DNA of 32,134 bases from Prevotella sp. (GTDB taxonomy: Bacteria > Bacteroidota > Bacteroidia > Bacteroidales > Bacteroidaceae), in the NCBI GenBank assembly GCA_017651265.1, contig JAGCDO010000034.1, forward strand, positions 1-32,134. Reading direction: 5' to 3'. Position numbers and translations under genes: made by a program. This document shows, one piece after another, positions 535 through 28,938 of this stretch (positions are counted from its first letter, which is position 1; every line of letters begins with the position of its first letter). The notes below the pieces were generated by a model that saw only the letters and a program-made list of their open reading frames with translations, was not told the DNA's origin and ran no database searches.

Positions 535-569
535 GTTGAGAGTTCAGAGTTCATAGTTCATAGTTGGAG
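535..569. repeat. Heptamer array, five units of GTTCAnA/GTTGAGA type
   Basis: Five consecutive 7-bp units on the plus strand: GTTGAGA, GTTCAGA, GTTCATA, GTTCATA, GTTGGAG. On the coding (minus) strand the array supplies the surE stop codon (TGA at 558-560) and forms essentially the whole lpxB leader. It belongs to the same family as the arrays at 21108-21135 and 28904-28938. Confidence 0.85.
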
Positions 570-1334
570 ATTCCAACTGTTCAGCATTTCTATTGCACTA
601 TAGGCAGTCACATCAATCTGGGTGGGCGTAATCGCCACATAGCCATGATTCAGTGCCCAGTTATCAGTATCCTCGGCTTCAGGCTCATCATTGGTGTAGG
701 AACCTACCATCCAGAAATAGTCGTACCCACGAGGATGGTGGCACATCACACACTCATTGCCCCAAGTGCCATGAGCCATGCGGCACACCTTCACGCCCTT
801 GAATTCAGGAACCAGCGGGAAGTTCACGTTCAGACATACGCCGAGGGGAAGACCTTCCTTCAACACCTTTTGTGTAATGGTTCTGATCAGCGGTCGTAAG
901 GGCTCGAAATCAGCCTCATCACGATAGTCGCAAAGAGAGAATGCCACACTGGGAATGTATTTCATGCAGCCTTCCATGGTTACCCCCATGGTTCCACTGT
1001 AATGGGTATTCACGGAAGCATTGTCACCATGGTTGATACCACCGATGACCATATCGGGTTTGCGTTCCTGACAGAACTGGTTCAATGCCAGTTTCACACA
1101 GTCCACTGGAGTTCCGTTGCACGACCACACCTCCACGCCTTCCCTTTTCCTGCGCAGTTTCAGTCGCAAAGGCGTGGTGGCCGAGAAAGCACAGGAATAA
1201 CCAGAACGCGCCGATTCCGGAGCGCATACCAGCAAATCGGCTATGTCTTTCAGCATATCCATCAGCTCGTTGATTCCCTTCGAGTGATAGCCGTCATCAT
1301 TCGAAATAAGTATTAACGGTCTATTATTTTTCAT
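558..1334 (-). CDS. surE: 5'/3'-nucleotidase SurE
   Basis: 258-residue SurE, a metal-dependent nucleoside-monophosphate phosphatase (survival protein E). The N-terminus carries the metal-binding ISNDDG motif (Asp13-Asp14), followed by CAPESARSGYS and CNGTPVDCVKLAL. A GGINHGDNASVNTHYSGTMG stretch is the active-site region with the family's Asn and Gly residues. The ATG at 1332-1334 is chosen because the protein then begins MKNNRPLILISNDDG, as in the family. The frame stays open upstream to 1541, but that part crosses the promoter and overlaps the divergent parA leader. A minus-strand promoter lies about 22 nt upstream. The last residues and stop codon fall in a heptamer array, and lpxB follows. 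Confidence 0.95.
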   Translation of the reverse strand: MKNNRPLILISNDDGYHSKGINELMDMLKDIADLLVCAPESARSGYSCAFSATTPLRLKLRRKREGVEVWSCNGTPVDCVKLALNQFCQERKPDMVIGGINHGDNASVNTHYSGTMGVTMEGCMKYIPSVAFSLCDYRDEADFEPLRPLIRTITQKVLKEGLPLGVCLNVNFPLVPEFKGVKVCRMAHGTWGNECVMCHHPRGYDYFWMVGSYTNDEPEAEDTDNWALNHGYVAITPTQIDVTAYSAIEMLNSWNLQL

Positions 1335-1355
1335 AAATAATGCTTGTTTGGGGGA

Positions 1356-1412
1356 CAAAGTTACGAAAAGTTGAGGGCAATACAAAAGAAAAGTCGTTTT
1401 TCTTTTTATTGC
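1356..1412 (-). promoter_or_regulatory. surE-lpxB promoter with inverted repeat over the -33 box
   Basis: On the minus strand, -33 TTTG (1383-1386), a 19-nt spacer and -7 TAACTTTG (1356-1363) fit the Bacteroidetes sigma-ABfr consensus. An inverted repeat, GCAATACAAAAGAAAA (1377-1392) against TTTTCTTTTTATTGC (1398-1412), has one bulged base and a 5-nt loop. The -33 box lies inside its promoter-proximal arm. The arrangement recurs at other promoters in this window. Confidence 0.75.
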
Positions 1413-1429
1413 TGAGACGGAGTAAGTTC

Positions 1430-1443
1430 GCGAATTTATTCGC
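1430..1443. promoter_or_regulatory. Palindrome GCGAAT-TT-ATTCGC between surE and parA
   Basis: Perfect 6-bp arms with a 2-bp centre in the divergent surE/parA intergenic region, about 50 bp upstream of the parA -7 box. It could be an operator. It does not resemble a parS site, and no regulator can be assigned from the sequence. Confidence 0.4.
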
Positions 1444-1492
1444 AAAATTACTAAAAAAGGTTGGAAAATACCCGTTTCTCGCATAAAATATG

Positions 1493-1500
1493 TAACTTTG
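1493..1500 (+). promoter_or_regulatory. parA -7 box TAACTTTG (weak -33)
   Basis: TAACTTTG at 1493-1500 matches the Bacteroidetes -7 consensus and lies 63 nt upstream of the parA ATG. No TTTG is present 19-20 nt further upstream, so the promoter is either weak or helped by an activator. Confidence 0.55.
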
Positions 1501-1563
1501 CACAAAATTTTGTTTGTCAGAACACCTCTTATGAGGTGCACACGACGTAAACATCACGAAGAA

Positions 1564-2349
1564 ATGGGAAAGATTATAGCTTTAGCCAACCAAAAAGGAG
1601 GCGTAGGAAAGACCACCACGACCATCAACCTGGCCGCATCGTTGGCCACGTTGGAGAAGAATGTGCTGGTTATTGACGCAGACCCGCAGGCCAACGCTTC
1701 CAGTGGTCTTGGCGTAAATATCAAAGATATCGACTGCTCTCTTTACGAATGCATCATCGATCATGCCGATGTGCGAGATGCCATGTACACCACAGACATC
1801 GAAGGACTCGACATCATCCCCAGTCATATCGACCTAGTTGGTGCTGAGATAGAGATGCTGAATGTGGAACATCGTGAACAGGTGATCAAGAACCTGTTGG
1901 AACCGATCAAGGACGAATACGACTTCATCCTCATCGACTGCTCACCGTCGCTGGGCTTGATTACCGTGAATGCGCTGACAGCAGCCGACTCGGTCATCAT
2001 CCCCGTACAGTGTGAGTACTTCGCTCTGGAAGGAATCAGTAAGCTGCTGAACACCATCAAGATCATCAAGAGTAAGCTGAACCCCAAGCTGGAGATTGAA
2101 GGATTCCTGCTGACCATGTATGACAGTCGTCTCCGTCTGGCCAACCAGATTTACGACGAAGTGAAACGTCACTTCCAGGAACTGGTATTCAAGACCGTTA
2201 TCCAGCGAAACGTGAAGCTGTCGGAGAGTCCGAGTCATGGCTTGCCCGTTATTCTCTACGACGCAGATTCCACGGGAGCAAAGAACCACCTGTCGTTGGC
2301 TAAGGAGATTATCAACAAGAACAAACCGAAAGGTAAGAAGAGAGGATAG
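1564..2349 (+). CDS. parA: Chromosome partitioning ATPase ParA (Soj)
   Basis: 261-residue deviant-Walker ParA ATPase, which works with ParB to segregate replication origins. MGKIIALANQKGGVGKTTTT holds the KGGVGKTT signature (residues 11-18). The Walker A' stretch VLVIDADPQANASSGL follows (Asp38, Asp40), and DFILIDCSPSLGLITVNAL is the Walker B region. The length is typical of chromosomal Soj proteins that lack the N-terminal HTH of plasmid ParA. ATG 1564 is chosen over upstream in-frame starts because those fall in the promoter. parB follows after 32 nt, so the pair is co-transcribed. No parS-like palindrome was found in the window. Confidence 0.96.
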   Translation: MGKIIALANQKGGVGKTTTTINLAASLATLEKNVLVIDADPQANASSGLGVNIKDIDCSLYECIIDHADVRDAMYTTDIEGLDIIPSHIDLVGAEIEMLNVEHREQVIKNLLEPIKDEYDFILIDCSPSLGLITVNALTAADSVIIPVQCEYFALEGISKLLNTIKIIKSKLNPKLEIEGFLLTMYDSRLRLANQIYDEVKRHFQELVFKTVIQRNVKLSESPSHGLPVILYDADSTGAKNHLSLAKEIINKNKPKGKKRG

Positions 2350-2381
2350 AAGATTAGAGAACGTTTTATAGTTCAAAGAAA

Positions 2382-3272
2382 ATGGCAGTAAGAAAGAAAT
2401 ACAGTGCACTGGGACGTGGTCTTGATGCCCTCATCTCAACAGAAGATGTGAAGACACAAGGCTCCTCCACCATCAACGAGATACCCATCGAACAGATCGA
2501 GGCTAACCCCAACCAGCCACGACGGGAGTTTGAAGAGACCGCGCTGAATGAGCTGGCACAAAGCATCAGCGAGATCGGCATCGTGGTTCCCATCACCTTA
2601 CGACAGATGGGAGAGCATAAATACCAGATCATTGCCGGTGAACGCAGATGGCGTGCCTCGCAGATTGCCGGTCTGACCTCCCTACCCGCCTATATCCGTA
2701 CCATCAAGGACGAGGAGGTGATGGAGATGGCGCTGGTGGAGAACATCCAGCGTGAGGACCTGAATGATATCGAGATCGCCCTGGCTTATGAACATCTGCT
2801 GGAAACCAGCGGTATGACACAGGAGAAGATGTCAAAGCGTGTGGGAAAGAGTCGCACAGCTGTGACCAACTACCTGCGTTTGCTGAAACTCCCTGCACAG
2901 GTACAGATGGCTTTGCAGAACAAGACCATCAGCATGGGACATGCCCGTGCCTTGCTTTCTCTGGAGAGTCCTGCGCAACAGATCAGGTTGTTCAAGGAAA
3001 TCCAGAAGAACGGCTATTCCGTTCGTCAGGTGGAGGAACTGGTGAAGAGTGCCAAAGATCATGATGAGGTTTCCTCTTCAAAGAAAGGCAATGCCGGAAA
3101 GAAAAGTCTGCCGGCAGAGTTCAACGTTCTGCAGAAACGGTTATCCGACTTCTTCAACACGAAGGTGGTGATGAGCTGCTCGGCAAAAGGAAGGGGAAAG
3201 ATCAGCATTCCCTTCAGTAGTGAAGAGGAGTTGGAACGTATCATCAACATGTTTGACAAGTTGAAAGAGTGA
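2382..3272 (+). CDS. parB: Chromosome partitioning protein ParB (Spo0J/Noc family)
   Basis: 296-residue ParB, a CTP-dependent clamp that loads at parS and stimulates ParA. The N-terminal domain contains IPIEQIEANPNQPR and the CTP-binding GERRWRA box (residues 86-92). Next come ALVENIQREDLNDIEIA and an HTH around MTQEKMSKRVGKSRTAVTNY. The C-terminal dimerisation segment begins near residue 250. It sits directly downstream of parA in the usual order. Its TGA stop overlaps the GTG start of the next gene in GTGA, indicating translational coupling. Confidence 0.96.
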   Translation: MAVRKKYSALGRGLDALISTEDVKTQGSSTINEIPIEQIEANPNQPRREFEETALNELAQSISEIGIVVPITLRQMGEHKYQIIAGERRWRASQIAGLTSLPAYIRTIKDEEVMEMALVENIQREDLNDIEIALAYEHLLETSGMTQEKMSKRVGKSRTAVTNYLRLLKLPAQVQMALQNKTISMGHARALLSLESPAQQIRLFKEIQKNGYSVRQVEELVKSAKDHDEVSSSKKGNAGKKSLPAEFNVLQKRLSDFFNTKVVMSCSAKGRGKISIPFSSEEELERIINMFDKLKE

Positions 3273-3991
3273 GTATCATCAATACGATATACAAGAAATG
3301 GCTGGTTGTCATCTCATTGATCGTCATGTGCGTTCCTTGTGGTGCCGCAACAGGATTGCTGACAGACAGTGTGGAGGTTGACTCTACTGCGGAGATCCTG
3401 AAACAAGACTCCGCCATGGTCAGCGAGATGATCATGAAGGACAGCAAGCAGAAAGTGAAACGCGACTGGAGTACATGGCGCCCGTCACCCAAACGGGCCA
3501 TGTGGCTGGCTATTGTCGTTCCGGGTGCCGGACAGATCTATAACAGAAAGTACTGGAAGCTGCCCATCTTCTACGGAGGATTCCTCGGATGCTACTACGC
3601 CATGCGTTGGAACAACATGATGTATCGCGATTATTCGCAAGGGTATATCGACCTGAACGACGGGAACCTGGAGACGCAGAGCTACAACCAGTTCATGCAC
3701 CTGGGAATGACCATCGACGAGTCTAACCCGAGCGATGTACAGCGGTTCTCGAACAAGTTCAAGAAGAGAAAGGACTACTACCGCCGATACCGCGACATGA
3801 GCGCCTTCATCCTGATCGGTGTCTATGCACTGTCAGTGATTGATGCCTATGTGGATGCTTCGCTGTCGGAGTTCGATATCTCGGAGGATCTGAGCATGAA
3901 AGTGTCGCCGACACTGATGCAAAACGGGGGCTATACGTTCAATCCTGTGAGGACTACCTCGCTGGGTGTTCACTGCTCTCTCACATTCTAA
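3269..3991 (+). CDS. DUF5683 domain membrane protein
   Basis: 240-residue protein with an N-terminal signal or anchor segment (WLVVISLIVMCVPCGAATGL). A DUF5683-type core follows: RDWSTWRPSPKRAMWLAIVV, then PGAGQIYNRKYWKLPIFYGG, with hydrophobic helices and a later FILIGVYALSVIDAYVDASL segment. The family is common next to parB in Bacteroidales and has no established biochemical function. The GTG start at 3269 overlaps the parB stop by 4 nt. No other start precedes the signal sequence. The position between parB and a lytic transglycosylase suggests an envelope or division role, which is inference only. Confidence 0.85.
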   Translation: MSIINTIYKKWLVVISLIVMCVPCGAATGLLTDSVEVDSTAEILKQDSAMVSEMIMKDSKQKVKRDWSTWRPSPKRAMWLAIVVPGAGQIYNRKYWKLPIFYGGFLGCYYAMRWNNMMYRDYSQGYIDLNDGNLETQSYNQFMHLGMTIDESNPSDVQRFSNKFKKRKDYYRRYRDMSAFILIGVYALSVIDAYVDASLSEFDISEDLSMKVSPTLMQNGGYTFNPVRTTSLGVHCSLTF

Positions 3992-4028
3992 CCATTATTC
4001 AACCTATTAAAACCCATATCATTCAAGA

Positions 4029-5402: not shown

Positions 5403-5429
5403 TATCATACACCTTAAAAATATAGGGAC

Positions 5430-7712: not shown

Positions 7713-7713
7713 T

Positions 7714-7748
7714 TAGAGGTGAGAGGTAAGAAGTGAGAGGTGAGAGAT
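7714..7748. repeat. Heptamer array, five units of GAGAGGT type
   Basis: Units TAGAGGT, GAGAGGT, AAGAAGT, GAGAGGT, GAGAGAT fill the gap between the convergent rsh and MerR-type stop codons. Reading the plus strand, the TGA formed at each unit junction shifts frame every 7 bp, so all three frames are closed within 21 bp. The family is the same as at 18050-18105, also a convergent junction. Confidence 0.9.
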
Positions 7749-8095: not shown

Positions 8096-8120
8096 AGCGT
8101 CCGTAATGATTTGATTGCCG

Positions 8121-8128
8121 CAAAGATA
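8121..8128 (-). promoter_or_regulatory. -7 box TATCTTTG of the MerR-type gene
   Basis: TATCTTTG on the minus strand, 25 nt upstream of the start codon. No good TTTG lies at the expected -33 spacing. Confidence 0.5.
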
Positions 8129-8170
8129 CAACATTTTCAACTAAAATGCAAGTGTTTTTCGTATTTAATT

Positions 8171-8266: not shown

Positions 8267-8290
8267 CACAAATTTGAAATAAGAACAAAT

Positions 8291-10915: not shown

Positions 10916-10922
10916 GTATTTA

Positions 10923-11068
10923 GAAGCAAGAAGCAGGAAGCAAGAAGCAAGAGAATAGCTTAGAGAAGCAAGAAGCAGGAAGCAAGAAGCAAGAGAATAC
11001 TACTGAGATTTAGGCTCTATATCATAGTGCATTTCTCTTGCTTCTTGCTTCCTGCTTCTTGCTTCCTT
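10923..11068. repeat. GAAGCAA heptamer arrays forming direct and 33-bp inverted repeats; probable bidirectional terminator
   Basis: Two identical 35-bp blocks (10923-10957 and 10965-10999), each GAAGCAA GAAGCAG GAAGCAA GAAGCAA GAGAATA, are separated by one heptamer, giving an exact 42-bp period. A third, inverted block at 11033-11065 pairs perfectly with 10965-10997: a 33-bp stem with a 35-nt loop. A run of T (11067-11072) follows on the plus strand, so the structure can end alaS transcription. It can also fold in the convergent recA transcript, but there it has no T tract. Confidence 0.9.
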
Positions 11069-12118: not shown

Positions 12119-12153
12119 GAAGCAAGAAGCAAGATGCAAGAAGCAAGAGATTA
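12119..12153. repeat. GAAGCAA heptamer array, left arm around the S23-type gene
   Basis: Units GAAGCAA, GAAGCAA, GATGCAA, GAAGCAA, GAGATTA. Extended to 12154, it forms an ungapped 36-bp inverted repeat with 12584-12619 (31 of 36 positions complementary), including a perfect inner GCAAGAGATTAC/GTAATCTCTTGC. The two arms enclose the S23-type gene. Confidence 0.9.
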
Positions 12154-12588: not shown

Positions 12589-12623
12589 CTCTTGCCTCTT
12601 GCTTCTTGTTTCCTGCCTCTACA
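12589..12623. repeat. GAAGCAA-type heptamer array (inverted), right arm around the S23-type gene
   Basis: Plus-strand units CTCTTGC, CTCTTGC, TTCTTGT, TTCCTGC, CTCTACA. It is the inverted partner of 12119-12154 and overlaps the stop codon of the carboxynorspermidine synthase gene (12619-12621). Confidence 0.88.
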
Positions 12624-14200: not shown

Positions 14201-14228
14201 TCTCCTTCCTCCTTCGTCCTTCCTCGAA
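14201..14228. repeat. CCTCCTT/CGTCCTT heptamer array
   Basis: Units TCTCCTT, CCTCCTT, CGTCCTT, CCTCGAA. Except for one missing unit it nearly matches the array inside dnaG at 25531-25565, and it shares units with the array inside cardiolipin synthase (23145-23214). Here it is intergenic, 34 bp beyond the DUF6621-like stop. Confidence 0.85.
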
Positions 14229-16253: not shown

Positions 16254-16724
16254 ATGAAAAAGAATGTATTAAGACTTATGACGATGGTTGCCCTGTTGTT
16301 CTGTATGAGCATCAATGCACAGGCACAGGCTGTTATCGGAACCGCTGGCGATCCCGCTATGGAAGCTCAGCAGGCAAAGGCCATGCAGAAGGCCGCTAAG
16401 GAACAGGACAAGGCGCTGAAGGCTCAGGCCAAGGCTGATAAGGAAGCTGCTAAGGCTGCTAAGGAAGCAAAGAAGGCTGAGAAGAAAGCCGAAAAGCAAC
16501 GTAAGGAGGCTGAGAAACGTGAGAAAGCCATTGAGAAGGCTGAGAAAGCCAAGAAAGATGCCGAGAAGGCAGTAAAGAATGCTGAGAAAGCTTCACAGAA
16601 GGCTCTTGAAGCACAGGATGGCGATCCGATGAAGGCCGCCAAGGCTCAGGAAAAAGCCGCCAAGGCACAGCAGAAAGCCTTGAAGGCACAAGAAAGGGCT
16701 GAGAAGCTGGCTAAGAAACTATAA
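16254..16724 (+). CDS. Secreted Lys/Ala/Glu-rich coiled-coil protein
   Basis: 156-residue protein with a clear signal peptide (MKKNVLRLMTMVALLFCMSI, cleaved after NAQAQA). The rest is almost entirely Lys, Ala, Glu and Gln in irregular AKAQKAAK/AEKAEK-like units, predicting one long charged alpha-helix or coiled coil. There is no recognisable domain. Such composition occurs in TolA-like periplasmic stalks and in histone-H1-like proteins, but the signal peptide argues for the periplasm. Its TAA stop overlaps the nhaD ATG by one base (TAATG), so nhaD translation is coupled to it. No function can be assigned. Confidence 0.8.
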   Translation: MKKNVLRLMTMVALLFCMSINAQAQAVIGTAGDPAMEAQQAKAMQKAAKEQDKALKAQAKADKEAAKAAKEAKKAEKKAEKQRKEAEKREKAIEKAEKAKKDAEKAVKNAEKASQKALEAQDGDPMKAAKAQEKAAKAQQKALKAQERAEKLAKKL

Positions 16725-18052
16725 TGACCACACTGACTATCTGTATTATTATTGCTTTCGTGATTGGCTATGCGTGTATAGCCACCGAGAGTATCTTGGA
16801 GATCAACAAGGCTGCTATCGCCTTGCTGATGTGTGTGGTATGCTGGACCTTGTTCATGATGTCGCCTGAGTCGTATATATCAGGCGACAATGTGCTCGCA
16901 CAGGTAAGTGAGAAGATCCAGATGAGTTTAGGTGATACTGCCTCCACCCTGTTCTTCCTGATGGGTGCTATGACCATCGTGGAGATTGTCGACTCGAATG
17001 GTGGTTTCAACTTCGTTCGAGACACCATCAAGACACGCTCCAAGAGGAAACTGATGTGGCGTATTGCCTTCATGACCTTCTTCCTGTCGGCTATCCTCGA
17101 CAACCTCACCACTTCGATTGTGATGATCATGGTGTTGAGGAAACTGGTACAGGAGCGTAAGGAACGGTTGATCTATGCTGCCCTGGTTGTGATTTCCGCC
17201 AACTCGGGTGGTGCTTTCTCGCCCATCGGCGACGTCACCACCATCATGTTGTGGATTAAAGGTGTCATCACTACGCAAGGTGTCATCACCGAGATCTTCA
17301 TCCCGTCGCTTGTATCCATGCTGATTCCTGCTTTTATCCTGCAGTATCAGTTGGAAGGGAAGTTCGACAAGGAACAGAACCTGCCAAAAGCCCAGGTGAG
17401 TGCCTTTACGCATAGACAGCGCGACATCATCTTCTGGTTAGGCGTAGGCGGACTATGCTTTGTGCCTATCTTCCGTTCACTCACCAACCTGCCTCCTTTC
17501 ATGGGAATCCTGCTGGTGCTGGGTGTGCTGTGGACTACCACAGAGTTCTTCCACCGCGGTGTTCATCGTGATGGTGAAGAGGATACCATGGCCAAGCGTG
17601 TAACCGAACTGCTGTCGCGTATCGACCTGTCAACCATCATGTTCTTCCTCGGTATCCTGATGGCCGTGAGCTGTCTGGAACATGTGGGCGTGCTTCACGC
17701 GTTGGGCAGCTGGCTTGATGGCGTAAGCAACGGAAACCACTATCTGGTAACGGGCATCATCGGTGTTCTCTCAAGTATCGTAGATAACGTACCGCTGGTG
17801 GCTGGTGCCATGGGTATGTATCCCGTTGCTCCCATGGGTGATATGGCCGTTGACGGTATCTTCTGGCAGTTGCTGGCCTACTGTGCCGGAGTGGGTGGCT
17901 CGATGTTGATCATCGGTAGCGCCGCTGGCGTGGTGGTTATGGGACTGGAGAAGATCACTTTCGGCTGGTACATGAAAAAGATCACCTGGATTGCTTTTGC
18001 TGGCTATCTCGCCGGTATGTTCACCTATTGGGTGGAGAAACTGATTTTTTAG
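16724..18052 (+). CDS. nhaD: Na+/H+ antiporter NhaD
   Basis: 442-residue inner-membrane sodium/proton antiporter of the ion-transporter superfamily. Many hydrophobic helices are present. Characteristic segments are FLMGAMTIVEIVDSNGGFNF, ILDNLTTSIVMIMVLRKLVQ, and ISANSGGAFSPIGDVTTIML. The second half has SIVDNVPLVAGAMGMYPVAP and GGSMLIIGSAAGVVVMGLEK, the internal-repeat counterpart. The ATG overlaps the preceding stop by one base. Its own stop codon TAG is the first three bases of a GAGAGGT heptamer array shared with the convergent rsmD gene. Confidence 0.95.
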   Translation: MTTLTICIIIAFVIGYACIATESILEINKAAIALLMCVVCWTLFMMSPESYISGDNVLAQVSEKIQMSLGDTASTLFFLMGAMTIVEIVDSNGGFNFVRDTIKTRSKRKLMWRIAFMTFFLSAILDNLTTSIVMIMVLRKLVQERKERLIYAALVVISANSGGAFSPIGDVTTIMLWIKGVITTQGVITEIFIPSLVSMLIPAFILQYQLEGKFDKEQNLPKAQVSAFTHRQRDIIFWLGVGGLCFVPIFRSLTNLPPFMGILLVLGVLWTTTEFFHRGVHRDGEEDTMAKRVTELLSRIDLSTIMFFLGILMAVSCLEHVGVLHALGSWLDGVSNGNHYLVTGIIGVLSSIVDNVPLVAGAMGMYPVAPMGDMAVDGIFWQLLAYCAGVGGSMLIIGSAAGVVVMGLEKITFGWYMKKITWIAFAGYLAGMFTYWVEKLIF

Positions 18053-18105
18053 AGGTGAGAAGTGAGAGGTGAGAGGTTAGAGGTGAGAGGTGAAGATTGA
18101 GAAGT
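18050..18105. repeat. Heptamer array, eight units of GAGAGGT type, overlapping both convergent gene ends
   Basis: Units TAGAGGT, GAGAAGT, GAGAGGT, GAGAGGT, TAGAGGT, GAGAGGT, GAAGATT, GAGAAGT. The first unit contributes the nhaD stop. The rsmD stop (18077-18079) and its last nine or so codons also lie inside the array. Confidence 0.9.
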
Positions 18106-19668: not shown

Positions 19669-19671
19669 ACA

Positions 19672-21108
19672 ATGATCACAGAAGCATTGTCTCTCCGCAT
19701 ACGTCAGACCTTCCGTCTGGAGCCTACCCGCGAGCAATCGCAGGCCATCGAGACCTTCTGCCGTTTTATTACCAGCAGGGATGCTCATTCGACGATGATG
19801 ATGCGGGGCTGTGCTGGAACAGGAAAGACTTCCCTGGCAGGTGCTTTTGTTCGAACCCTGTTGCAACTCCAGCAGAAGGTGGTGCTGTTGGCACCGACGG
19901 GAAGGGCCGCGAAGGTGTTCTCGCAGAACAGCGGATACCCTGCATTCACCATCCATCGTAAGATCTACCGTCAGAAAACACTCACCGACTACCAGTCGGG
20001 ATTCAGTCTGAACGACAATATGCACACCGATACGCTGTTCCTTGTGGACGAAGCTTCGATGATTGCCAACAGCGGTCCGGCTGGCGGGGAGGCGTTCTTC
20101 GGTAGCGGGTATCTGTTAGACGATCTGATCCAATATGTGTATAGCGGCAGGAATTGTAGGTTGATGCTCATTGGCGACAAGGCTCAGCTGCCTCCTGTAG
20201 GTGAGGAGGAATCGCCGGCACTGACAAAAGGTATGCTGGAGGAATACGGATTGCAAGTAGCGGTATGCGACCTCAACGAGGTGCTCCGCCAAAGTCAGGA
20301 GAGTGGTATCTTGTTCAATGCAACGATGATCCGGCAGATGATCAATGCCCCGCAGCTGCCTCGCATCCACTTTCATGCCTTCGCCGATATCCAGATGGTT
20401 CCGGGTAATGAACTCGTGGAACAGCTCAACAGTTCTTATTCCAAGGTGGGAATCGATGAGACCATGGTGATTACCCGAAGTAACAAACGGGCAAACATCT
20501 ACAACGAAGGAATCAGGAGAACCATTCTCGACCGTGAAGAGGAGCTGAACACCAACGACCTGCTCATGGTGGTGAAGAACAACTACTATTGGGTGAAACC
20601 TGGAAAGGAGGAAGACGACGGGCAGGAGCTGAGCTTCATCGCCAACGGCGACAGGGTGAAGGTGTTGAAGGTGCGCAACGTGCGGGAACTCTATCAGTTC
20701 CGCTTTGCCGATGTGCTCCTGCAGTTTCCCGACTATCATGATTTCGAGCTGCAGACAACAGTTATCTTGGACAGTCTGACCACCGAGGCGCCTGCTCTCA
20801 CCTCCGAGCAGAACGAGCTGCTGTTCCAAGAGGTGATGGTCGACTACGCTGATATACCCTATAAGCGCGACCGTATCAAGAAGATCAAGGAGGATCCGTA
20901 CTACAATGCCCTACAAATCAAATATGCCTATGCAGTGACCTGCCATAAGGCGCAGGGTGGACAGTGGGCACATGTCTATCTCGACCAAGGGTATATGACT
21001 GATGATATGCTCTCGCCTGATTATATCCATTGGCTCTACACCGCCTTTACCCGTGCCACCGAGAAGCTGTTCCTCGTGAACTGGCCCACCTCCCAAATCG
21101 CCAAATAG
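19672..21108 (+). CDS. RecD-like ATP-dependent DNA helicase (SF1B)
   Basis: 478-residue superfamily 1 helicase of the short RecD-like type common in Bacteroidetes. Walker A is GCAGTGKTS (residues 47-55), with VVLLAPTGRAAKVFSQNSGY downstream as motif Ia. Motif II is LFLVDEASM and motif III is LMLIGDKAQLPPVGEE. The C-terminal UvrD_C_2-like domain contains KYAYAVTCHKAQGGQW and LYTAFTRATEKLFLVNW. It lacks the long N-terminal region of RecD2 and is not accompanied by recB or recC. It probably unwinds DNA 5'-3' in repair. ATG 19672 is chosen because it immediately follows the promoter. rmuC is downstream across four GTTCAAA units. Confidence 0.9.
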   Translation: MITEALSLRIRQTFRLEPTREQSQAIETFCRFITSRDAHSTMMMRGCAGTGKTSLAGAFVRTLLQLQQKVVLLAPTGRAAKVFSQNSGYPAFTIHRKIYRQKTLTDYQSGFSLNDNMHTDTLFLVDEASMIANSGPAGGEAFFGSGYLLDDLIQYVYSGRNCRLMLIGDKAQLPPVGEEESPALTKGMLEEYGLQVAVCDLNEVLRQSQESGILFNATMIRQMINAPQLPRIHFHAFADIQMVPGNELVEQLNSSYSKVGIDETMVITRSNKRANIYNEGIRRTILDREEELNTNDLLMVVKNNYYWVKPGKEEDDGQELSFIANGDRVKVLKVRNVRELYQFRFADVLLQFPDYHDFELQTTVILDSLTTEAPALTSEQNELLFQEVMVDYADIPYKRDRIKKIKEDPYYNALQIKYAYAVTCHKAQGGQWAHVYLDQGYMTDDMLSPDYIHWLYTAFTRATEKLFLVNWPTSQIAK

Positions 21109-21135
21109 TTCAAAGTTCAAAGTTCAAAGTTCAAA
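21108..21135. repeat. Four perfect GTTCAAA heptamers between recD-like gene and rmuC
   Basis: GTTCAAA repeated exactly four times. It starts on the last base of the helicase stop codon and ends 5 nt before the rmuC ATG, so it makes up almost the entire rmuC leader. This is the most uniform array in the window. Read as plus-strand codons it contains no stop; read on the minus strand it carries TGA in every unit. Confidence 0.93.
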
Positions 21136-21140
21136 GATAT

Positions 21141-22595: not shown

Positions 22596-24102
22596 GGAAA
22601 GGACGGTGGTCCAGGTTCTCCACATCATCAAGAAGAACACTGTCCTTCACATCGTTCATATACACCTCCTTCATCCGCAGCGCCATGTCACGGTCGTAGA
22701 TAAACGCGTTGCCCTCGAAATTGTTCTCGAAGCTACGGAAATCCACATTGGACGAGCCCACCGTACACATCGAATCGTCGCTCACCAACAGCTTGGAGTG
22801 GTTGAAACCCTTTTGGTACAGATAGATCTTCACACCGGCACTCACCACCTCATGCACATAGCTCCTGCTCGCCCACTCCACCAGTTTCGCATCGGTCTTG
22901 TAAGGAATCATCACCCTGACGTCAACACCCGTCAGTGCAGCGGTTCGCATGGCTAAGAGTACAGGTTCTGTGGGCAGGAAATAAGGTGTTTCGATATATA
23001 CATATTTCTTGGCTTCCAACAGGATGCGTATATAGCCTTGCATGATATCAGGCCATTCGGATATCGGACTGCTCGTCACAATCTGTACAATACAGTCGCT
23101 GCCCATACTTCCTTGGCTTTCCCCGTAGGCGCCGACCGTTGGTTCCTCCTTCGTCCATTCTCCTTCGTCCTTTGTCCATTCTCCTTCCTCCTTCGTCCTT
23201 CCTCCTTCCTCCAGAATCGGAGGATAATAGCTGTGATCGGAGATCAGCGTACGGTCAACAAAGTACCAGTCAACCAGGAAAGCCCGCTGAATGCCATACA
23301 CGCCGCCGCCCTGGATACGCAGATGGGTATCGCGCCAAAGCACCCTCTTGCTTCCTGCTTCTTGCCTCTTGCTTCTTTTCTTCTTCCCCCTGACATACCT
23401 CGTGGCGATGTTCATCCCACCAATGAACCCGATCTTTCCATCGATCACGCACAGCTTACGGTGGTTACGGTAGTTCACCTTACTGGTAAAGGCAGGGAAT
23501 TTCACCGGCATGAAGCCATGTACCTCAATGCCCGCATCCCTCATCCGTTCAAAGAAAGAGCCCTTCACGTCCCAGCAGCCCACATCATCGTAGATCACCC
23601 GCACCTCCACATGCTCCTTGGCCTTGTCAATCAACGCGTCGGCAATCATGTTTCCCAGCTCGTCGTCGTTGAAGATATACGAGTCGATATGGATATGATG
23701 CTTCGCCTTGGCTATATCCCGTAACAGCGCATGGAAGAACTGATAGCCGTCGGTATAGATGTCTATTTCGTTGTCCTTGAACGGCAAAGCCCAGTTCTGA
23801 CTGGCGAACAGCTTGATTAGCTTCTCGTGTTGCTGCGGCAGCACCAGATTCTTCTGTTCGGCAAACTCCAGCATCGAACGCTTCGTGAGCTGGTCCAGAC
23901 TGTTCTGCGAGATCATCTTCTCCTTCCTGGTGTTCTGTCCGAAGAAGAAATAGAGTATGATACCAACCAGCGGAAGGAATACCAGCACCAGCATCCACGC
24001 CATGGTCTTGGCTGGCTGACGGTTATCCATCAGCACCGTAATCATCGTACCGACAACTGCCAGTACGTAGATAGCGAGGAGTAGCCAATGGATATAGATC
24101 AT
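22546..24102 (-). CDS. cls: Cardiolipin synthase (phospholipase D family) with two repeat-encoded insertions
   Basis: 518-residue membrane enzyme that condenses phosphatidylglycerol to cardiolipin. Two N-terminal transmembrane helices precede two HKD motifs: NHRKLCVIDGKIGFIGGMNI (about residue 217) and FNHSKLLVSDDSMCTVGSSN (about residue 436). Between them are two stretches not expected from other Cls proteins. KKKRSKRQEAGSKRVL (about 240-255) and a Glu/Trp/Lys/Gly-rich stretch (about 297-320, with EGEWTKDEGEWTKEE) are both encoded by heptamer arrays. The catalytic motifs are intact, so the protein is probably functional. It follows dnaG by 22 nt on the same strand. Its 3' end overlaps rmuC by 50 nt. 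Confidence 0.92.
   Translation of the reverse strand: MIYIHWLLLAIYVLAVVGTMITVLMDNRQPAKTMAWMLVLVFLPLVGIILYFFFGQNTRKEKMISQNSLDQLTKRSMLEFAEQKNLVLPQQHEKLIKLFASQNWALPFKDNEIDIYTDGYQFFHALLRDIAKAKHHIHIDSYIFNDDELGNMIADALIDKAKEHVEVRVIYDDVGCWDVKGSFFERMRDAGIEVHGFMPVKFPAFTSKVNYRNHRKLCVIDGKIGFIGGMNIATRYVRGKKKRSKRQEAGSKRVLWRDTHLRIQGGGVYGIQRAFLVDWYFVDRTLISDHSYYPPILEEGGRTKEEGEWTKDEGEWTKEEPTVGAYGESQGSMGSDCIVQIVTSSPISEWPDIMQGYIRILLEAKKYVYIETPYFLPTEPVLLAMRTAALTGVDVRVMIPYKTDAKLVEWASRSYVHEVVSAGVKIYLYQKGFNHSKLLVSDDSMCTVGSSNVDFRSFENNFEGNAFIYDRDMALRMKEVYMNDVKDSVLLDDVENLDHRPFLKRLWESLVRLLSPLL
23145..23214. repeat. Ten-unit CCTCCTT/CGTCCTT heptamer array inside cls
   Basis: Ten consecutive heptamers, e.g. CCTCCTT, CGTCCAT, TCTCCTT, CGTCCTT, TGTCCAT. 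At the 21-bp (three-unit) level it encodes the repeating peptide EGEWTKD on the minus strand. Both strands are free of stops in this family. It is the same family as 14201-14228 and 25531-25565. Confidence 0.92.
23345..23379. repeat. Five-unit GAAGCAA-type heptamer array inside cls
   Basis: Plus-strand units CTCTTGC, TTCCTGC, TTCTTGC, CTCTTGC, TTCTTTT, the inverse of GAAGCAA/GCAAGAG. It encodes SKRQEAGSKR on the minus strand. It is nearly identical to the intergenic arrays at 10923-11068 and 12589-12623. Confidence 0.9.
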
Positions 24103-24124
24103 ATTTGTAAAGAATAAATGCTGT

Positions 24125-26155
24125 TTATGTCATGATACTGGTACCTAACTTCTTCGCCATCAGGTTCCGCAGTTCCATCATATTCTTCAGTTCCTCCATC
24201 AGCTGAGGCAGGCGTTCCGGATTACTTGCCGATAGCGCTATCTGCTGACGAAGTGTCTGGATGTGCGTATTCACGTAGTCGAAACGGAAATCCAGCACCA
24301 GGTGCTCCACCTCCTGTCGGAACGAGTCTTCTTCCTCCTTCATCTGCAGACTCTTGGTGAGCTGCACCTCGTCAATAAGCATTTCCGCAGCGAGCGCACT
24401 CACCTTGATGTCGTGATGACGGGAGAAGAACTCCGAGGCCACAAAGCCCTCATCGCCCGAATGTGCCACTGCCTCTTCCAGCACCTGGTTATACAGCGGG
24501 TTACGGAACCTTAGTCCGTCGGCATTCAAGTCAATCTGTATATACTGCGCCACGTTCAGGTCGATGGTTCCACCATCTTCGGTCTCCACATCGCGATACA
24601 CAATCTTCTCCCCATGACGGATAACCATACGGATAAGGAGGTCCTCTACAGAAGAATATTCTCGAGAGTTGAGAGTTGACAGTTGAGAGTTGACAGTTGG
24701 GGATTGAGGATTCGTGGGCGTTGGTGACGGCGTGGAAACGGCCTTCGCCTTCTGCTCCTTGTCATTCCTGATCATCTTGTTCATCGTAGATATCAGCGTG
24801 GCCTCGTGAATGCCTAACCGATGGGCACAGTCGGTGATGTACGTAGCCCTTGTAATCTGATCGGTTATCACACTGATGCTCTTGATGATCGAGTTAATGG
24901 CCTCTGAACGCTTGATGGGATCGGTGACACCCTTCAGCAGCACATCACTCTTGAACTGGATGAAATCGGTTTGGTGCTCCTCGATATATCGTCTGAAGTC
25001 ATCAGCCGTATGCTTTCTGGCAAAGCTGTCGGGATCATCCCCATCAGGAAACAGCAGCACCTTCACATTCATACCCTCAGCCAACAGCATATCCGTACCG
25101 CGCAGGGCTGCATGAATACCCGCCTCATCACCGTCGTACAACAAGACGATGTTCTGTGTGAAGCGGTGGAGCATACGGATCTGATGGTTGCTCAGGGCGG
25201 TACCCGAGTTGGCCACCACATTCTCGATACCGCATTGGTGCATGGAAATCACATCGGTGTAGCCCTCCACCATATACACGCAGTTCTCCTTGGCTATCGC
25301 CTTCTTGGCCTGATAGATACCGTAGAGGTTCTGTTCCTTGTGGTAGATCTCACTGTCGGGCGAGTTCACGTATTTCTGCTGCACGCCCTTCGTAGCCTGG
25401 TCGAGTTTTCTTCCGCCGAACGCCACCACCTTTCCACTGATGCTCAGCCACGGGAATATCACCCTTCCCGCAAAGCGGTCCACCAGGGTCGAAAACGAAC
25501 TATCCTTAGCGCCTGTATTCTCAGCGCTATTCTCCTTCCTCCCTCCTCCTTCGTCCTTCCTCGAAACATCCTCCTCACTCCTCGTTTTCTCATAGCACAA
25601 GCCCGTGCTCACCAGGAACTCCTTCTGATACCCCTTTCGCTGCGCTTCCTTCGGTAGGGCGAAACGGTCGTTGAGGTCATACCCCAAACGGAACTTACGG
25701 ATGATATCGTCACGGATACCGCGACTGCGGAAATACTGCATACCGATGGCCACCCCATCCACATGGTTATGAAGAAGGTCCTCGAAATAGTCGGCGGCCC
25801 ACTCGTTCACGATGAACATCGACTCGCGTTTGCTCTCGGCCTCCTTCTCCTCATTACTCAGCTCACGCTCCTGAATCTCGATATTGTACTTCTTGGCCAG
25901 CCACCGCAGCGCCTCCGGGTAGGTCATCTGCTCATGGGCCATCAAAAAGCCCACGGGCGTACCTCCCTGACCGCAAGAGAAACACTTACAGATATTTCGG
26001 GCGGGAGAAACATAGAACGACGGGGTGCGCTCATTGTGGAAAGGACATAAGCCTTTGTAGTTCGCCCCGCTCTTCCTCAGCGTCACGAACTCCGACACCA
26101 CATCCACAATATTCGCAGCATCAATAATCCTGTCAACCGTTGCCCTGTCGATCAT
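24125..26155 (-). CDS. dnaG: DNA primase DnaG with two repeat-encoded linker insertions
   Basis: 676-residue replicative primase. The CHC2-type zinc finger has Cys37, His40, Cys58 and Cys61 (CPFHNERTPSFYV, CKCFSCGQGG). The catalytic core contains VYMVEGYTDVISMHQCGIEN (about 295) and the acidic LLYDGDEAGIHAALRGTDML (about 340) of the TOPRIM domain. The C-terminal helicase-interaction domain follows. Two segments are encoded by heptamer arrays: about residues 197-209 (SRKDEGGGRKE) within the N-terminal half of the core, and about 482-498 (PTVNSQLSTLNS) in the linker to the C-terminal domain. As an essential gene it must tolerate both. The start ATG 26155 gives MIDRATVDRIIDAANIVDVV, the family N-terminus. 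Confidence 0.95.
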   Translation of the reverse strand: MIDRATVDRIIDAANIVDVVSEFVTLRKSGANYKGLCPFHNERTPSFYVSPARNICKCFSCGQGGTPVGFLMAHEQMTYPEALRWLAKKYNIEIQERELSNEEKEAESKRESMFIVNEWAADYFEDLLHNHVDGVAIGMQYFRSRGIRDDIIRKFRLGYDLNDRFALPKEAQRKGYQKEFLVSTGLCYEKTRSEEDVSRKDEGGGRKENSAENTGAKDSSFSTLVDRFAGRVIFPWLSISGKVVAFGGRKLDQATKGVQQKYVNSPDSEIYHKEQNLYGIYQAKKAIAKENCVYMVEGYTDVISMHQCGIENVVANSGTALSNHQIRMLHRFTQNIVLLYDGDEAGIHAALRGTDMLLAEGMNVKVLLFPDGDDPDSFARKHTADDFRRYIEEHQTDFIQFKSDVLLKGVTDPIKRSEAINSIIKSISVITDQITRATYITDCAHRLGIHEATLISTMNKMIRNDKEQKAKAVSTPSPTPTNPQSPTVNSQLSTLNSREYSSVEDLLIRMVIRHGEKIVYRDVETEDGGTIDLNVAQYIQIDLNADGLRFRNPLYNQVLEEAVAHSGDEGFVASEFFSRHHDIKVSALAAEMLIDEVQLTKSLQMKEEEDSFRQEVEHLVLDFRFDYVNTHIQTLRQQIALSASNPERLPQLMEELKNMMELRNLMAKKLGTSIMT
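24664..24712. repeat. Seven-unit GTTGACA/GTTGAGA heptamer array inside dnaG (linker)
   Basis: Units GAGAGTT, GAGAGTT, GACAGTT, GAGAGTT, GACAGTT, GGGGATT, GAGGATT. On the dnaG (minus) strand they read without stops and encode the NSQLSTLNS-type linker. On the plus strand they would give repeated TGA stops. Confidence 0.92.
25531..25565. repeat. Five-unit CCTCCTT/CGTCCTT heptamer array inside dnaG
   Basis: Units TCTCCTT, CCTCCCT, CCTCCTT, CGTCCTT, CCTCGAA. With one additional unit this repeats the intergenic array at 14201-14228, including the shared TCGAA end. Confidence 0.9.
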
Positions 26156-26163
26156 TTCGTATG

Positions 26164-26171
26164 CAAAGATA
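26164..26171 (-). promoter_or_regulatory. dnaG -7 box TATCTTTG, almost adjacent to the start codon
   Basis: Minus-strand TATCTTTG at 26164-26171, only 8 nt before the dnaG ATG, so the transcript would have a leader of a few bases at most. No TTTG is present at the usual -33 distance. Confidence 0.5.
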
Positions 26172-26192
26172 CGATATTTTTTCTTATCAGTA

Positions 26193-26223
26193 TTTGTATT
26201 GTTGAAAAAAAACATTATTTTTG
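26193..26223 (+). promoter_or_regulatory. Promoter of the SusE/F-like gene
   Basis: -33 TTTG (26193-26196), 19 nt, -7 TATTTTTG (26216-26223). The leader is about 50 nt to the ATG at 26281. It overlaps the divergent dnaG promoter region. Confidence 0.7.
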
Positions 26224-26280
26224 CATACAAAATACTAACATTAGTAATACGCTTTTTTATGCGACTCTAATTATTTTATT

Positions 26281-28776
26281 ATGATGAAAAGGATACTTAC
26301 ACTGATGGTGTTGGGGGTTATAGTGGCCATCAGCACTGTGGCTAAGGCCAGTGAGCTGGCACCTTATGTCACAAGCATAGATTTATATGGTTCACCTAAC
26401 GACTGGAATGAGCCTATTGGGCATTTCGAGAAAGACGGCGACGGCGTGTGGCATCTCAATGACGTCGAGATTAACGACGTCACCACCTTCAAGCTGAAAC
26501 TTCACATCAATAATCCGCAAGGACAAGAGAGTGATGTGTGGTTCGGCATCAAAAACGGTGACGACCAGATGCTGAAGAGCGCATCACCTGGTACCATTGT
26601 AGAATGCAGTAGCGCAAGTAATGCTCCCAATTTCCGTATCGGCCATCCAGGTAAGTTCTCCTTCACCTTGAATGACAATGACATCAACAGTGCCCGGTTC
26701 CATTTTGAGGGAAAATTCGAAAAGAACCGCTTTATCACGGGAGAGTTCAATAACTGGGGTGAGACTAGGTTCACTGCTTGGGTTGGCGAATACACGCTCG
26801 ACATCGATCCTGATGACTCGCCCCCTATGAGCGGCCAGTTCCTCATTATTGATCAGGATTACAATTACCTGGGTGGAATAACTGACGGAGAGTACTACAC
26901 CATCACTGAGGATAATCCGAATGTCAATCTTGCTACAGATGCTCAAGGCAAGAAAAATCTCTACCTCGCAAACGATGGCTACTACTTATTCATCATTGAT
27001 GAAAATGACAAGCTCACAATAAAGAATTGGCCTGAGGAAGTGGTCACCGTCAGCATCGTCGGCTCAACCGTCCCTGGCTGGGATATGTCTAACGCGAGAA
27101 TCATCCCACTCACGCTCGACCAGTCAACAGGCAATTACATCAGCGAGCCAACGGGCATCCTTGCAGGTTTCGACTGCCAACTGCTCAAGCACAGCAGCTT
27201 TAACAGCGTTGGAGACACTTGGTATGGTGGTTCATCGGACAAATTCACCATAGAGATTCCTGAAGGCGCATCAGATATTCCTCTGGAATCATTATTAGGC
27301 GCTGATTTCTGCTTTACCGACAATGGAATATTCACCTTCACACTGTCACCCGACTTCAGCACACTGAATATCAGCGGCTCCTACAATGTCGAGAATCAGT
27401 ATTTTCTGATCGGCGATTTCAACAACTGGAAACAGGATGAAAAAGTAGCTTTTGTTGCCCAAGACGGTGTATTGACTCTCACCCAGGAAATGGTGGGCGA
27501 GTTCCTTATTCTGGATATTTATGGCAACCTGTTGGGCGGAGCAACTAACGACAACCGCTACGTGCTTCACGAGGGTTGGCCCAGCGTGCAACTGACCACC
27601 GACAACAAAAAGAACCTCTACGTGGCTAATGTAGGCAAATACACGCTCACCATACAAGGTGGAAAACTCACCGTTACCAGTTTCCCCACCGATGACTACT
27701 ACATATGTGGTGACTTTAACAATTGGGTATCCGAGCCGATGACCAAGAACGCAGATGGCACCTACAGCATTGTGATGACCATTGGTGAAGACAACCAATT
27801 TAAGTTCCTTGACCATCGAGGAAATTGGTATGGTGGCAATACCCAGGGGAATGGCGATACCTACCTGATTCACAGTGAATGGTGCACTGATGTGCCACTG
27901 ACCAAAGGCGACTCTGGCTCCAACTTCATCATCAACGCCACAGGAAGCTACAAGTTTATCCTTGCCGGTAATGATGATGCCTTGAAGCTCACTGTCGTGG
28001 GATTTGGAAACATAACCCTTGCCGAAGCTTTAGAGGGCATTTCTGGCAACATTTCAGATTACCTCTATGTGGCAGCCGTATACGTATACGAGAACAAGGT
28101 GTATGTAACAAACGGCACCGACTGGCTGCGCCTCGAAAACGTGTACAATGCCGGTGAGCTATCCGAGGGCTACTGTGTCGAGCTCCCCAACCCTATTCCC
28201 GATGGCCTCAGTGGCAAAGACACACAACCCACCTTCACTATCGATAATTGGCTCTCAATTAGCTCAGATGACCCGCAAGTGCCTGTCATTGTCAATTATT
28301 CGCTTGCTGAGCCTTTCCACCCAATGCCCAAGCCCTGTCAAGTGGTGAACCTCGAGGGCTGGTTCTTCAATCAAGACGACACGAGCGTGCTTTGTGCATA
28401 CAACGACCAGAGTGGCAATTACAATCCGTCTATCGAACTTTATAATACTGATGACATGGTAGACATGGAAGAGGGCAGGATGTACAACATCAAGGCTGCT
28501 ATCACTCTTAGAGAGCCTTGGCAGAATATTGCCCCTCGCATCATGCCATCAGATTCCAACGCTATCGAAAATCTGGTAGCTGAAGTTATCGAATTCAAAG
28601 CCAAGGAATTGCCTATTGCCACTGGCATCATCAATACCACCGATGCTGCCACAGTTGTCAGCGTGAAATACGTAAACACTGCAGGACAGGTAAGTCTCAA
28701 ACCGTTTAAGGGTGTCAACATCGTCGTAACCACACATTCCGATGGCAACATTACTACGGTGAAAGAGGTTCACTAA
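26281..28776 (+). CDS. SusE/SusF-like multidomain surface protein
   Basis: 831-residue exported protein. The signal peptide is MMKRILTLMVLGVIVAISTV AKA, without a lipobox cysteine. The body contains related beta-sandwich modules marked by an F-N-N-W motif: GEFNNWGETRF near residue 150, GDFNNWKQDEK near 375 and GDFNNWVSEP near 473. A divergent module begins about 258. Each module has a FLILDIYGNLLGG- or FKFLDHRGNWYGG-like strand and a ...LYVANVGKYTLTI-like end, as in SusE/SusF carbohydrate-binding domains. The C-terminus (VSVKYVNTAGQVSLKPFKGV onwards) resembles a terminal domain shared by many Prevotella surface proteins. No SusC/SusD or glycosidase is next to it. Binding to glucan-type glycans is inference. 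Confidence 0.75.
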   Translation: MMKRILTLMVLGVIVAISTVAKASELAPYVTSIDLYGSPNDWNEPIGHFEKDGDGVWHLNDVEINDVTTFKLKLHINNPQGQESDVWFGIKNGDDQMLKSASPGTIVECSSASNAPNFRIGHPGKFSFTLNDNDINSARFHFEGKFEKNRFITGEFNNWGETRFTAWVGEYTLDIDPDDSPPMSGQFLIIDQDYNYLGGITDGEYYTITEDNPNVNLATDAQGKKNLYLANDGYYLFIIDENDKLTIKNWPEEVVTVSIVGSTVPGWDMSNARIIPLTLDQSTGNYISEPTGILAGFDCQLLKHSSFNSVGDTWYGGSSDKFTIEIPEGASDIPLESLLGADFCFTDNGIFTFTLSPDFSTLNISGSYNVENQYFLIGDFNNWKQDEKVAFVAQDGVLTLTQEMVGEFLILDIYGNLLGGATNDNRYVLHEGWPSVQLTTDNKKNLYVANVGKYTLTIQGGKLTVTSFPTDDYYICGDFNNWVSEPMTKNADGTYSIVMTIGEDNQFKFLDHRGNWYGGNTQGNGDTYLIHSEWCTDVPLTKGDSGSNFIINATGSYKFILAGNDDALKLTVVGFGNITLAEALEGISGNISDYLYVAAVYVYENKVYVTNGTDWLRLENVYNAGELSEGYCVELPNPIPDGLSGKDTQPTFTIDNWLSISSDDPQVPVIVNYSLAEPFHPMPKPCQVVNLEGWFFNQDDTSVLCAYNDQSGNYNPSIELYNTDDMVDMEEGRMYNIKAAITLREPWQNIAPRIMPSDSNAIENLVAEVIEFKAKELPIATGIINTTDAATVVSVKYVNTAGQVSLKPFKGVNIVVTTHSDGNITTVKEVH

Positions 28777-28809
28777 ACCGCCCCCTCGGTATAATTTGTG
28801 CTATTTCGA

Positions 28810-28899
28810 ATGGCACAATTACAGAGTTTATAAAGAGAGTTGGCAATCTTGACCGCCATCGCCACCAGCCTGGGAGTCACCAGCTGCATTACGGGCTAA
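28810..28899 (+). pseudogene. Remnant of a smalltalk-type small protein
   Basis: The frame ending at TAA 28897-28899 reads ILTAIATSLGVTSCITG, which I recognise as the C-terminal signature of the short (about 30-residue) smalltalk proteins of gut Bacteroidales. The in-frame ATG at 28810 is separated from it by a TAA at 28831-28833. In the neighbouring frame the preceding bases read TEFIKRVG, suggesting a frameshifted N-terminus. Only a very short product from TTG 28840 would be intact. It is probably a decayed copy. The identification is from memory of the family motif. Confidence 0.45.
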
Positions 28900-28903
28900 A
28901 GCC

Positions 28904-28938
28904 CAGTTGACAGTTGACAGTTGACAGTTGACAGTTCT
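28904..28938. repeat. Heptamer array, five units of CAGTTGA (GTTGACA) type
   Basis: CAGTTGA four times, then CAGTTCT. It is intergenic, beginning on the last base of a small GGGCT/AGCCC hairpin (28893-28904). It is followed by two small hairpins, CTTCGC/GCGAAG (28937-28951) and CGGC/GCCG. It has the same units as the array in the dnaG linker. Confidence 0.9.

Follow-up and report, generated by a model that had tools for sequence, protein, structure and literature searches.

Period-7 repeat arrays in a Prevotella genome as probable arms of small fold-back elements

The window analysed here is the whole of a 32,134-nt stretch of Prevotella sp. DNA (assembly GCA_017651265.1, contig JAGCDO010000034.1), corresponding to contig C31 of the source genome G000 (3.16 Mb, 93.89% complete). 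It is interspersed with short arrays of tandem 7-bp units, here called period-7 or heptamer arrays. Their neighbours are ordinary chromosomal genes as judged by Pfam matches: surE, parA/parB, relA/spoT, alaS, recA, saccharopine dehydrogenase, rmuC, a gene for a phospholipase-D-like enzyme, dnaG and genes for ETF subunits. A search of the window against Rfam gave no match, and no tRNAs were found in it. When periods 1-30 were scanned, 12 period-7 arrays were obtained at a score of ≥13 and 15 at a score of ≥10; at the higher threshold the only periods encountered were 7, 14, 21 and 28, together with one period-18 run. Tandem Repeats Finder placed arrays at positions 534, 7715, 10922/10964, 11036, 12119, 12589, 14202, 18051, 21107, 23143, 23346, 24664, 25532 and 28904, matching the period scan. 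No period-7 array arose in 20 first-order Markov sequences of window length. A first-pass annotation, made from the sequence alone, had reported at least twelve arrays, and this count, the unit families that it listed and their recurrence at several loci all held. It had overlooked that the segment at 10922-11065 is palindromic with complementary arms and that a one-sided boundary motif adjoins arrays of several families. The features are collected in Table 1, together with their state in a sister genome (G118) and in two further close relatives (G144 and G145) that were compared site by site.

Table 1. Heptamer arrays and related elements in the window
Feature	Coordinates	Strand	Remarks
Solitary AACTATG/AACTCTG array, 4.6 units	534..565	-	At stop codon of surE-like gene (558-1541, -); unchanged in G118
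Solitary AGAGGTG array	7715..7746	+	After relA/spoT-like stop codon; G118 copy shorter and degenerate
Palindromic element between alaS and recA	10922..11065		Left arm, partial core, second left arm, core, right arm
Left arms of alaS-recA element	10922..10994	+	AGAAGCA arrays at 10922-10952 and 10964-10994, partial core copy between
Type-I core of alaS-recA element	10995..11035	+	GAATACTACTGAGAT ... GCATTTC
Right arm of alaS-recA element	11036..11065	-	Exact reverse complement of left arm over compared bases; identity 1.00
Solitary AGAAGCA array	12119..12148	+	Inward motif GAGATTAC; 5' side of recA; identical in G118
Degenerate AGAAGCA array	12589..12620	-	Just downstream of saccharopine-dehydrogenase-like gene
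Short GGAGGAA array	14202..14225	-	
AGAGGTG array	18051..18093	+	Starts within stop codon of CitMHS-like gene; empty site in G118, G144 and G145
AGTTCAA array	21107..21136	+	Between stop codon and next ATG; G118 lacks two of the units, G144 has a period-9 array and G145 no array
GGAGGAA array in phospholipase-D-like gene	23143..23212	-	G118 and G144 have other unit numbers; no array in G145
AGAAGCA array in phospholipase-D-like gene	23346..23377	-	Three units (21 bp) more in G144
AGTTGAG/AGTTGAC array in dnaG	24664..24699	+	AACTCTC when read on the coding strand; G118 has the GGAGTGT family, G144 a longer AGTTGAC array and G145 degenerate heptamers
Half type-I element in dnaG	25510..25570	-	GGAGGAA arm (array 25532-25562) and core remnant; shortened in G144, no such array in G145
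AACTGTC array	28904..28966	-	Behind conserved hairpin-like sequence (28937-28966)

The arrays had been described as mostly five units long and as a system of gene junctions. Their lengths peaked at 30-32 bp, nearer to 4.4 units (63 of 154 arrays of the source genome, and 35 of 135 in relatives, whose unit sequences differ). Most arrays do lie at junctions, and array ends cluster at stop codons, but this position is not exclusive. Four window arrays are intragenic (23143-23212, 23346-23377, 24664-24699 and 25532-25562), and over 537 kb, using home-made gene calls, 37 of 133 arrays fell inside genes while 84 of the 121 non-edge arrays were intergenic. A system specific to junctions is thus not supported. 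At the half element in dnaG the protein matches of many relatives break (residues about 217-247). For arrays between genes, the coding strand was the G-richer one in 37 of 60 co-directional cases and in 12 of 16 convergent cases; inside genes this held for only 19 of 37, and a strand rule is therefore not claimed. Fifteen intragenic arrays have stop codons on one strand only, the template strand in 11 and the coding strand in 4, which is suggestive only. The window also contains a coding repeat of 21-bp period at 16389-16690, in an open reading frame (16254-16724) without a Pfam match; its unit reads as Lys/Ala/Glu-rich.

The first-pass annotation had proposed comparing period 7 with periods 5, 6, 8 and 9 beyond the window, and a large excess of period 7 was found in both the genome and the genus. 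In 417,633 bases of G000 (the window and 20 stretches, mostly picked near known arrays), there were 122 period-7 arrays, compared with 0, 0, 4, 14 and 6 for periods 5, 6, 8, 9 and 11, respectively; of longer periods, 18 gave 11 arrays and 22 gave 15. Since 17 of the first 20 stretches contain an already known match to the AGTTCAA pattern, the density is biased upward. The excess itself was not made by the choice of stretches, because the AGTTCAA family accounts for only 26 of 128 arrays in the sample. Contig C23, completed because one of its stretches proved array-rich, carries 26 arrays in 21 clusters over 159.6 kb. Extrapolation gives ~900 arrays per genome from the first sample and ~500 from C23, each to be read as an upper figure. 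The first 55 kb of C23 (1-55000) contain no period-7 array; hardly any anchors link its first 25 kb to the compared stretch of G118, which covers them only partly, and the part at 30-45 kb is A+T-rich, yet common to G118.

In 80 dnaG loci of relatives (1.43 Mb), periods 5 to 11 gave 0, 3, 117, 33, 30, 6 and 2 arrays, so that periods 8 and 9 each come to between about one quarter and one third of the count for period 7, and 43 of the 80 loci have a period-7 array. The three closest named relatives of the dnaG locus are the Prevotella assemblies RUG047, Tb.RUG.501 and RGIG7613 (water buffalo omasum); we take ‘RUG’ in such labels to stand for rumen. The distribution across the genus is patchy. 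Twenty further Prevotella stretches, ten of them from genomes rich in a degenerate consensus pattern, yielded 19 period-7 arrays confined to four loci, and matches to the AGTTCAA pattern numbered 181 in G000, 171 in G028, 23-27 in three other genomes and 0-11 in the remaining 31 of 35 genus members. Among other Bacteroidales families, 20 stretches (273 kb) gave two period-7 arrays, and one genome, G047, had 29 AGTTCAA-pattern matches. An assembly artefact is disfavoured because G172, which is 99% complete in two contigs, has six arrays in 20 kb. A consensus common to all units is not claimed. When 57 distinct units from 77 relative loci were fitted for register by expectation-maximisation, the score was 3.45, whereas 40 letter shuffles reached at most 3.24 and genomic 7-mers 2.84. 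Over whole genomes, however, the reversed control of the resulting degenerate consensus pattern matched about as often as the pattern itself, and in some genomes far more often (45 versus 509 in G073; 200 versus 703 in G169).

When arrays were aligned by family, the flank proved to be conserved on one side. Many GGAGGAA, AGAAGCA and GGAGTGT arrays are followed by a type-I boundary motif (GAGAATA, GAGATATG or GAGATTAC) or by GAGAAATG, a type-II motif (ATGATTAC) follows many AACTTTG arrays, and a rare type-III motif (TTTGCTGCCGC) was seen at four arrays. A 30-base hairpin-like 5' flank, exact or nearly so, precedes 4 of 12 AACTGTC arrays. An inward boundary motif adjoined 71 of 139 arrays of the source genome; the outward control gave 1 of 139, and of 4000 random places 24 had the motif. 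The corresponding figures for 77 relative loci were 21/109, 0/109 and 55/15400. As the motifs were derived from the source genome's own arrays, it is the outward control and the relatives that carry the weight. Arrays were also paired as inverted copies above chance: within 250 bp of one another, 23 of 40 adjacent pairs in G000 were inverted and of the same family (mean 3.8 and maximum 11 in 500 shuffles), as were 11 of 20 in 97 relative loci (shuffled mean 0.87, maximum 5). Forty palindromes with cores of up to 130 bp were listed from the sequences analysed. An intact element consists of a heptamer array of ~31 bp, an inward boundary motif, a core of ~13-130 bp, and then boundary and array as reverse complement. 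Arms of the same element matched each other better than re-paired arms of the same family, with 0.934 versus 0.912 in 15 elements (4 of 200 re-pairings as good) and 0.932 versus 0.890 in a second set of nine (3 of 200 as good).

One core is found with arms of different sequence. When the first sample was searched with a type-I core profile, 15 elements were recovered, and their arms consist of GGAGGAA, GGAGTGT, GTGGAAT, GCAAGAA or an 8-bp repeat, GGTGGCGC. Arms next to the type-II boundary ATGATTAC are AACTTTG in G000, AGAGGTG/AGAACTG in UBA3294 (locus L084) and AATTATG in G172. In G144 the left arm at c23:78650 is GGAGGAA-like, whereas G000 and G118 have a GGAGTGT-like arm beside the same core. 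Matches to the type-I core occur in 4 of 150 genomes: G000, G118, G080 and, over 21 bp only, G172. The orthologue of C23 57005 in G118 has a palindrome with 8-bp-repeat arms (of the GGTGGCGC and GTACCTCC kinds) in a SufB/D-like gene, where G000 has none. A further element of 67-71 bp (ACTTTTGGAGCAGCGAG ... GACAAAAGTCAACGAAGTTA) stands inside heptamer arrays of several families, directly 3' of TTGA, AAGA, AGGA or TTCA (C23 of G000 at 55686, 60981 and 63735; L036 at 2938; L034 at 18134; L182 at 3739; L176 at 12602). Nine of its 22 profile hits pass the cut-off for 7-periodic flanks; some others show array remnants and weaker hits none.

We also compared orthologous sites, as the first-pass annotation had advised, and found clean absence, unit steps and changes of family. 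C23 and the window have 30 array clusters, for 26 of which the orthologous site was available in G118; classes were assigned by reading alignments. Unit number, arms or an inserted element differed at 12 sites, the array was absent or degenerate in G118 at three, and its family was clearly different at three (c23:57268, c23:62227 and 24664) and doubtfully so at one (c23:133826). Absence is clean at 18051 in all three relatives. Whole-unit steps amount to 14 bp at 21107, 35 bp at c23:135636 and 21 bp at 23376 in G144, and a whole type-I element of ~120 bp is present at c23:62997 in G118 and absent in G000. Family replacement is seen at c23:62227, where four species have AGTTCAA (G000), AACTGTC (G118), ACCTCTC (G144) and AATTGTC (G145) between matching flanks. 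With flanks, the stretch measures 66, 60, 60 and 66 bases, respectively, all multiples of three, and the frame is open in all. The gene matches Aminotran_5 and, from its motif, we take it to encode a SufS-like cysteine desulfurase; the swap at c23:57268 lies in the SufB/D-like gene near it. Arrays with 10-bp margins make up 1.4% of aligned G000 bases, yet of the 40 insertions or deletions of ≥12 bp by which G000 and G118 differ, 23 touch an array of one genome or the other. In the G144 copy of the 21107 locus (L081), the two flanking genes are the same, but the array that separates them is the period-9 one (CCCATTAAG) instead of the period-7 one. In the region of C23 65027, the G118 and G144 copies have a heptamer-free insertion of ~120 bp adjoining ACATGGTCACAGCTGTGACC copies.

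Individual arrays are dispersed within a narrow lineage. An exact 31-bp array with one variant unit occurs in 31 copies in G000 and 10 in G118 and is absent from the other 148 of 150 genus genomes. The array form is thus genus-wide though patchy, while the concrete elements are lineage-bound and probably young, because both this exact array and the type-I core are confined to few genomes. A mobiliser of the kind found with repetitive extragenic palindromes (REP), the REP-associated tyrosine transposases (RAYT) of the IS200-605 group, is unsupported: G000 has no match to the Y1 transposase family PF01797, and G118 is outside the 87 of 150 genomes that match, no other mobiliser or polymerase family having been searched. 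The first-pass annotation had inferred a shared 7-bp templating or insertion mechanism; for an enzyme that would template such units, no writer or mobilising gene was identified, PF01797 being the one candidate family tested.

We believe that the arrays belong to small, dispersed fold-back elements, either as paired arms or as single arms that have survived, and that slippage and template switching rewrite these arms; we put the probability of this reading at roughly 55%. What is inherited would be the form, namely period 7, ~4.5 units, complementary arms and a boundary motif, while the letters of the arms turn over. Elements would spread as copies and insert whole, and slippage may add units to their arms or remove them. 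If a replication strand stalled and switched template to another array, one family would be replaced by another between unchanged flanks, and a switch to the opposite arm would make the two arms match; template switching between inverted arms with arm homogenisation is reported in PMC8604942 and PMC8794818. Selection might do little more than remove gene-breaking insertions, leaving arrays near stop codons and in protein loops, and no adaptive function would be needed. A bolder version, possible but doubtful, holds that this is a repeat class that inherits form rather than sequence: a loop-boundary motif plus the rule of ~4.5 seven-base units, complementary on both sides. At a fixed site, fold-back copying and template switching from array to array would rewrite its letters in both arms, and the class would have arisen or been rewritten independently in many Prevotella lineages.

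Several observations weigh against the fold-back reading. Seven of the 26 sites are unchanged in G118 except for substitutions or reordered units, the other 17 of the 40 adjacent pairs comprise nine direct and eight of other kinds, and the matching of arms beyond family is modest. The type-I element of G118 at c23:62997 has arms of two different families. No recognised boundary motif adjoins 66 of 139 arrays of the source genome or 159 of 222 others (sister genomes and relatives), so it does not follow that all arrays are arms; the arrays are also more widely spread than any core that can be named, because the type-I core is nearly confined to the lineage. Template switching was not seen as an event, the choice of seven has no explanation in this reading, and much of what is observed could also be produced by a transposase supplied in trans.

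Such a transposase is the main rival. The palindromes would then be miniature inverted-repeat transposable elements (MITEs), with the arrays as subterminal binding sites and solitary arrays as decayed copies. Dispersed exact copies, inverted ends, a shared polar core and the complete ~120-bp element at c23:62997 all agree with this, although short non-coding elements with terminal inverted repeats in many copies describe the palindromic subset only. MITEs share a constant terminal sequence with an autonomous transposon. Here, in contrast, arms of different sequence accompany one core, which a sequence-specific transposase should not tolerate, and the arm at c23:78650 changed family in G144 at a fixed site with core and flanks kept. 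No autonomous partner with arrays at both ends was recognised among inward pairs 250-4500 bp apart, examined in four stretches by eye with no family scan, and no target duplication was recognised at empty sites, by eye only and with ends blurred by the arrays. We consider the transposase account rather unlikely. Plain simple-sequence repeats, in which chance 7-bp duplications grow by slippage and polymerase geometry favours period 7 (an idea that PMC4692102 attributes to its reference 33), would explain the unit steps at 21107, 23346 and c23:135636, and a heptamer excess is reported in unrelated bacteria (PMC4692102). Slippage alone, however, does not produce exact copies of a variant pattern at 31 places, inward motifs or inverted pairing, nor does it make lengths peak at 30-32 bp or bring a different family to a given site, and we regard this account as improbable.

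Arrays might instead be functional sites, such as bidirectional terminators, stabilisers of mRNA 3' ends or protein-binding sites. The clustering of array ends at stop codons and the hairpin between the convergent genes alaS and recA point that way, but the intragenic arrays, through which frames are open where tested, the free change of letters and the clean absence in the sister species at 18051 make this less probable still. The least probable account, in our opinion, is a dedicated writer that adds arrays from a template of seven bases, for instance a reverse transcriptase or some other polymerase. It would suit the fixed period, near-fixed unit number and variable letters; no candidate was found, no search having been aimed at such enzymes, and the variant and mosaic units inside arrays fit the copying of existing arrays better.

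Reports of heptamer repeats come from several bacterial phyla. In the Prevotella genomes the gain, loss and rewriting of arrays can be traced because sister species show the same site with different families, and arrays place changing peptides in conserved proteins (DnaG, SufS-like and SufB/D-like). Arrays may also break assemblies, because they begin at base 1 of three contigs in the sample. Among known systems, Rickettsia palindromic elements are palindromes tolerated in frame in protein genes, as the in-frame heptamer insertions are here; to our knowledge those elements have no heptamer arms, and the likeness is one of working, membership not being claimed. Cyanobacterial short tandemly repeated repetitive (STRR) heptamers comprise several units in one genome, as in Prevotella; we know of no fold-back cores in them. 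Membership of the REP/RAYT elements is not supported for G000, whose 93.89% complete assembly gave no match to their Y1 transposase. The BrickBuilt MITE of Porphyromonas gingivalis is likewise a Bacteroidales element that combines a tandem repeat with inverted ends, but it has 23-bp units, 19 copies in one strain and an always intergenic position (PMC4596501). PINSR of Prevotella intermedia is a high-copy intergenic Prevotella repeat too, but of 188 bp and without terminal inverted repeats (PMC4755523).

Searches of the open-licence literature gave no paper that joins ‘heptanucleotide repeat’ with Prevotella (PMC5009743, concerning Prevotella, heptamer and tandem repeat, was judged unrelated by title), and according to PMC4692102 no detailed literature on heptamer repeats existed in 2015. 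TAACTGA repeats occur in marine Beggiatoaceae, some Cyanobacteria and five Bacteroidetes (PMC4679880). They resemble the Prevotella arrays in being heptamers, largely intergenic and patchy across phyla, but have one unit, lie mostly just before start codons in the main genome and are direct repeats with one exception (PMC4679880). The first-pass annotation had named the cyanobacterial STRR as the closest match; we find the Xanthomonas heptamers closer. Besides mentioning three tandem heptanucleotides in Calothrix, PMC4692102 describes GGGAATC repeats in Xanthomonas. Most of these have four units, and most lie between genes, nearer to the upstream one; 7-11% are intragenic, and in 70 and 75 cases neighbouring repeats have opposite orientation. 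The GGGGA(T/C)T repeats of Nostoc form few inverted pairs. The repeats of both genera are heptameric and dispersed, and their length and sequence vary between related species (PMC4692102). Each has one G-rich unit family, and the parts of PMC4692102 consulted describe no shared core with exchanged arms. In Prevotella, by contrast, the families are numerous, boundary motifs occur, one family can replace another at the same site and the intragenic share is that given above; units such as AACTTTG, AACTGTC and AATTGAA, by reading, are without G-tracts and so differ from a single G-rich, quadruplex-forming unit. The excess of 7 bp over other periods and the dispersed, mainly intergenic position near stop codons are those of interspersed heptamers, and the likeness between Prevotella and Xanthomonas, across two phyla, suggests that a general process may be at work.

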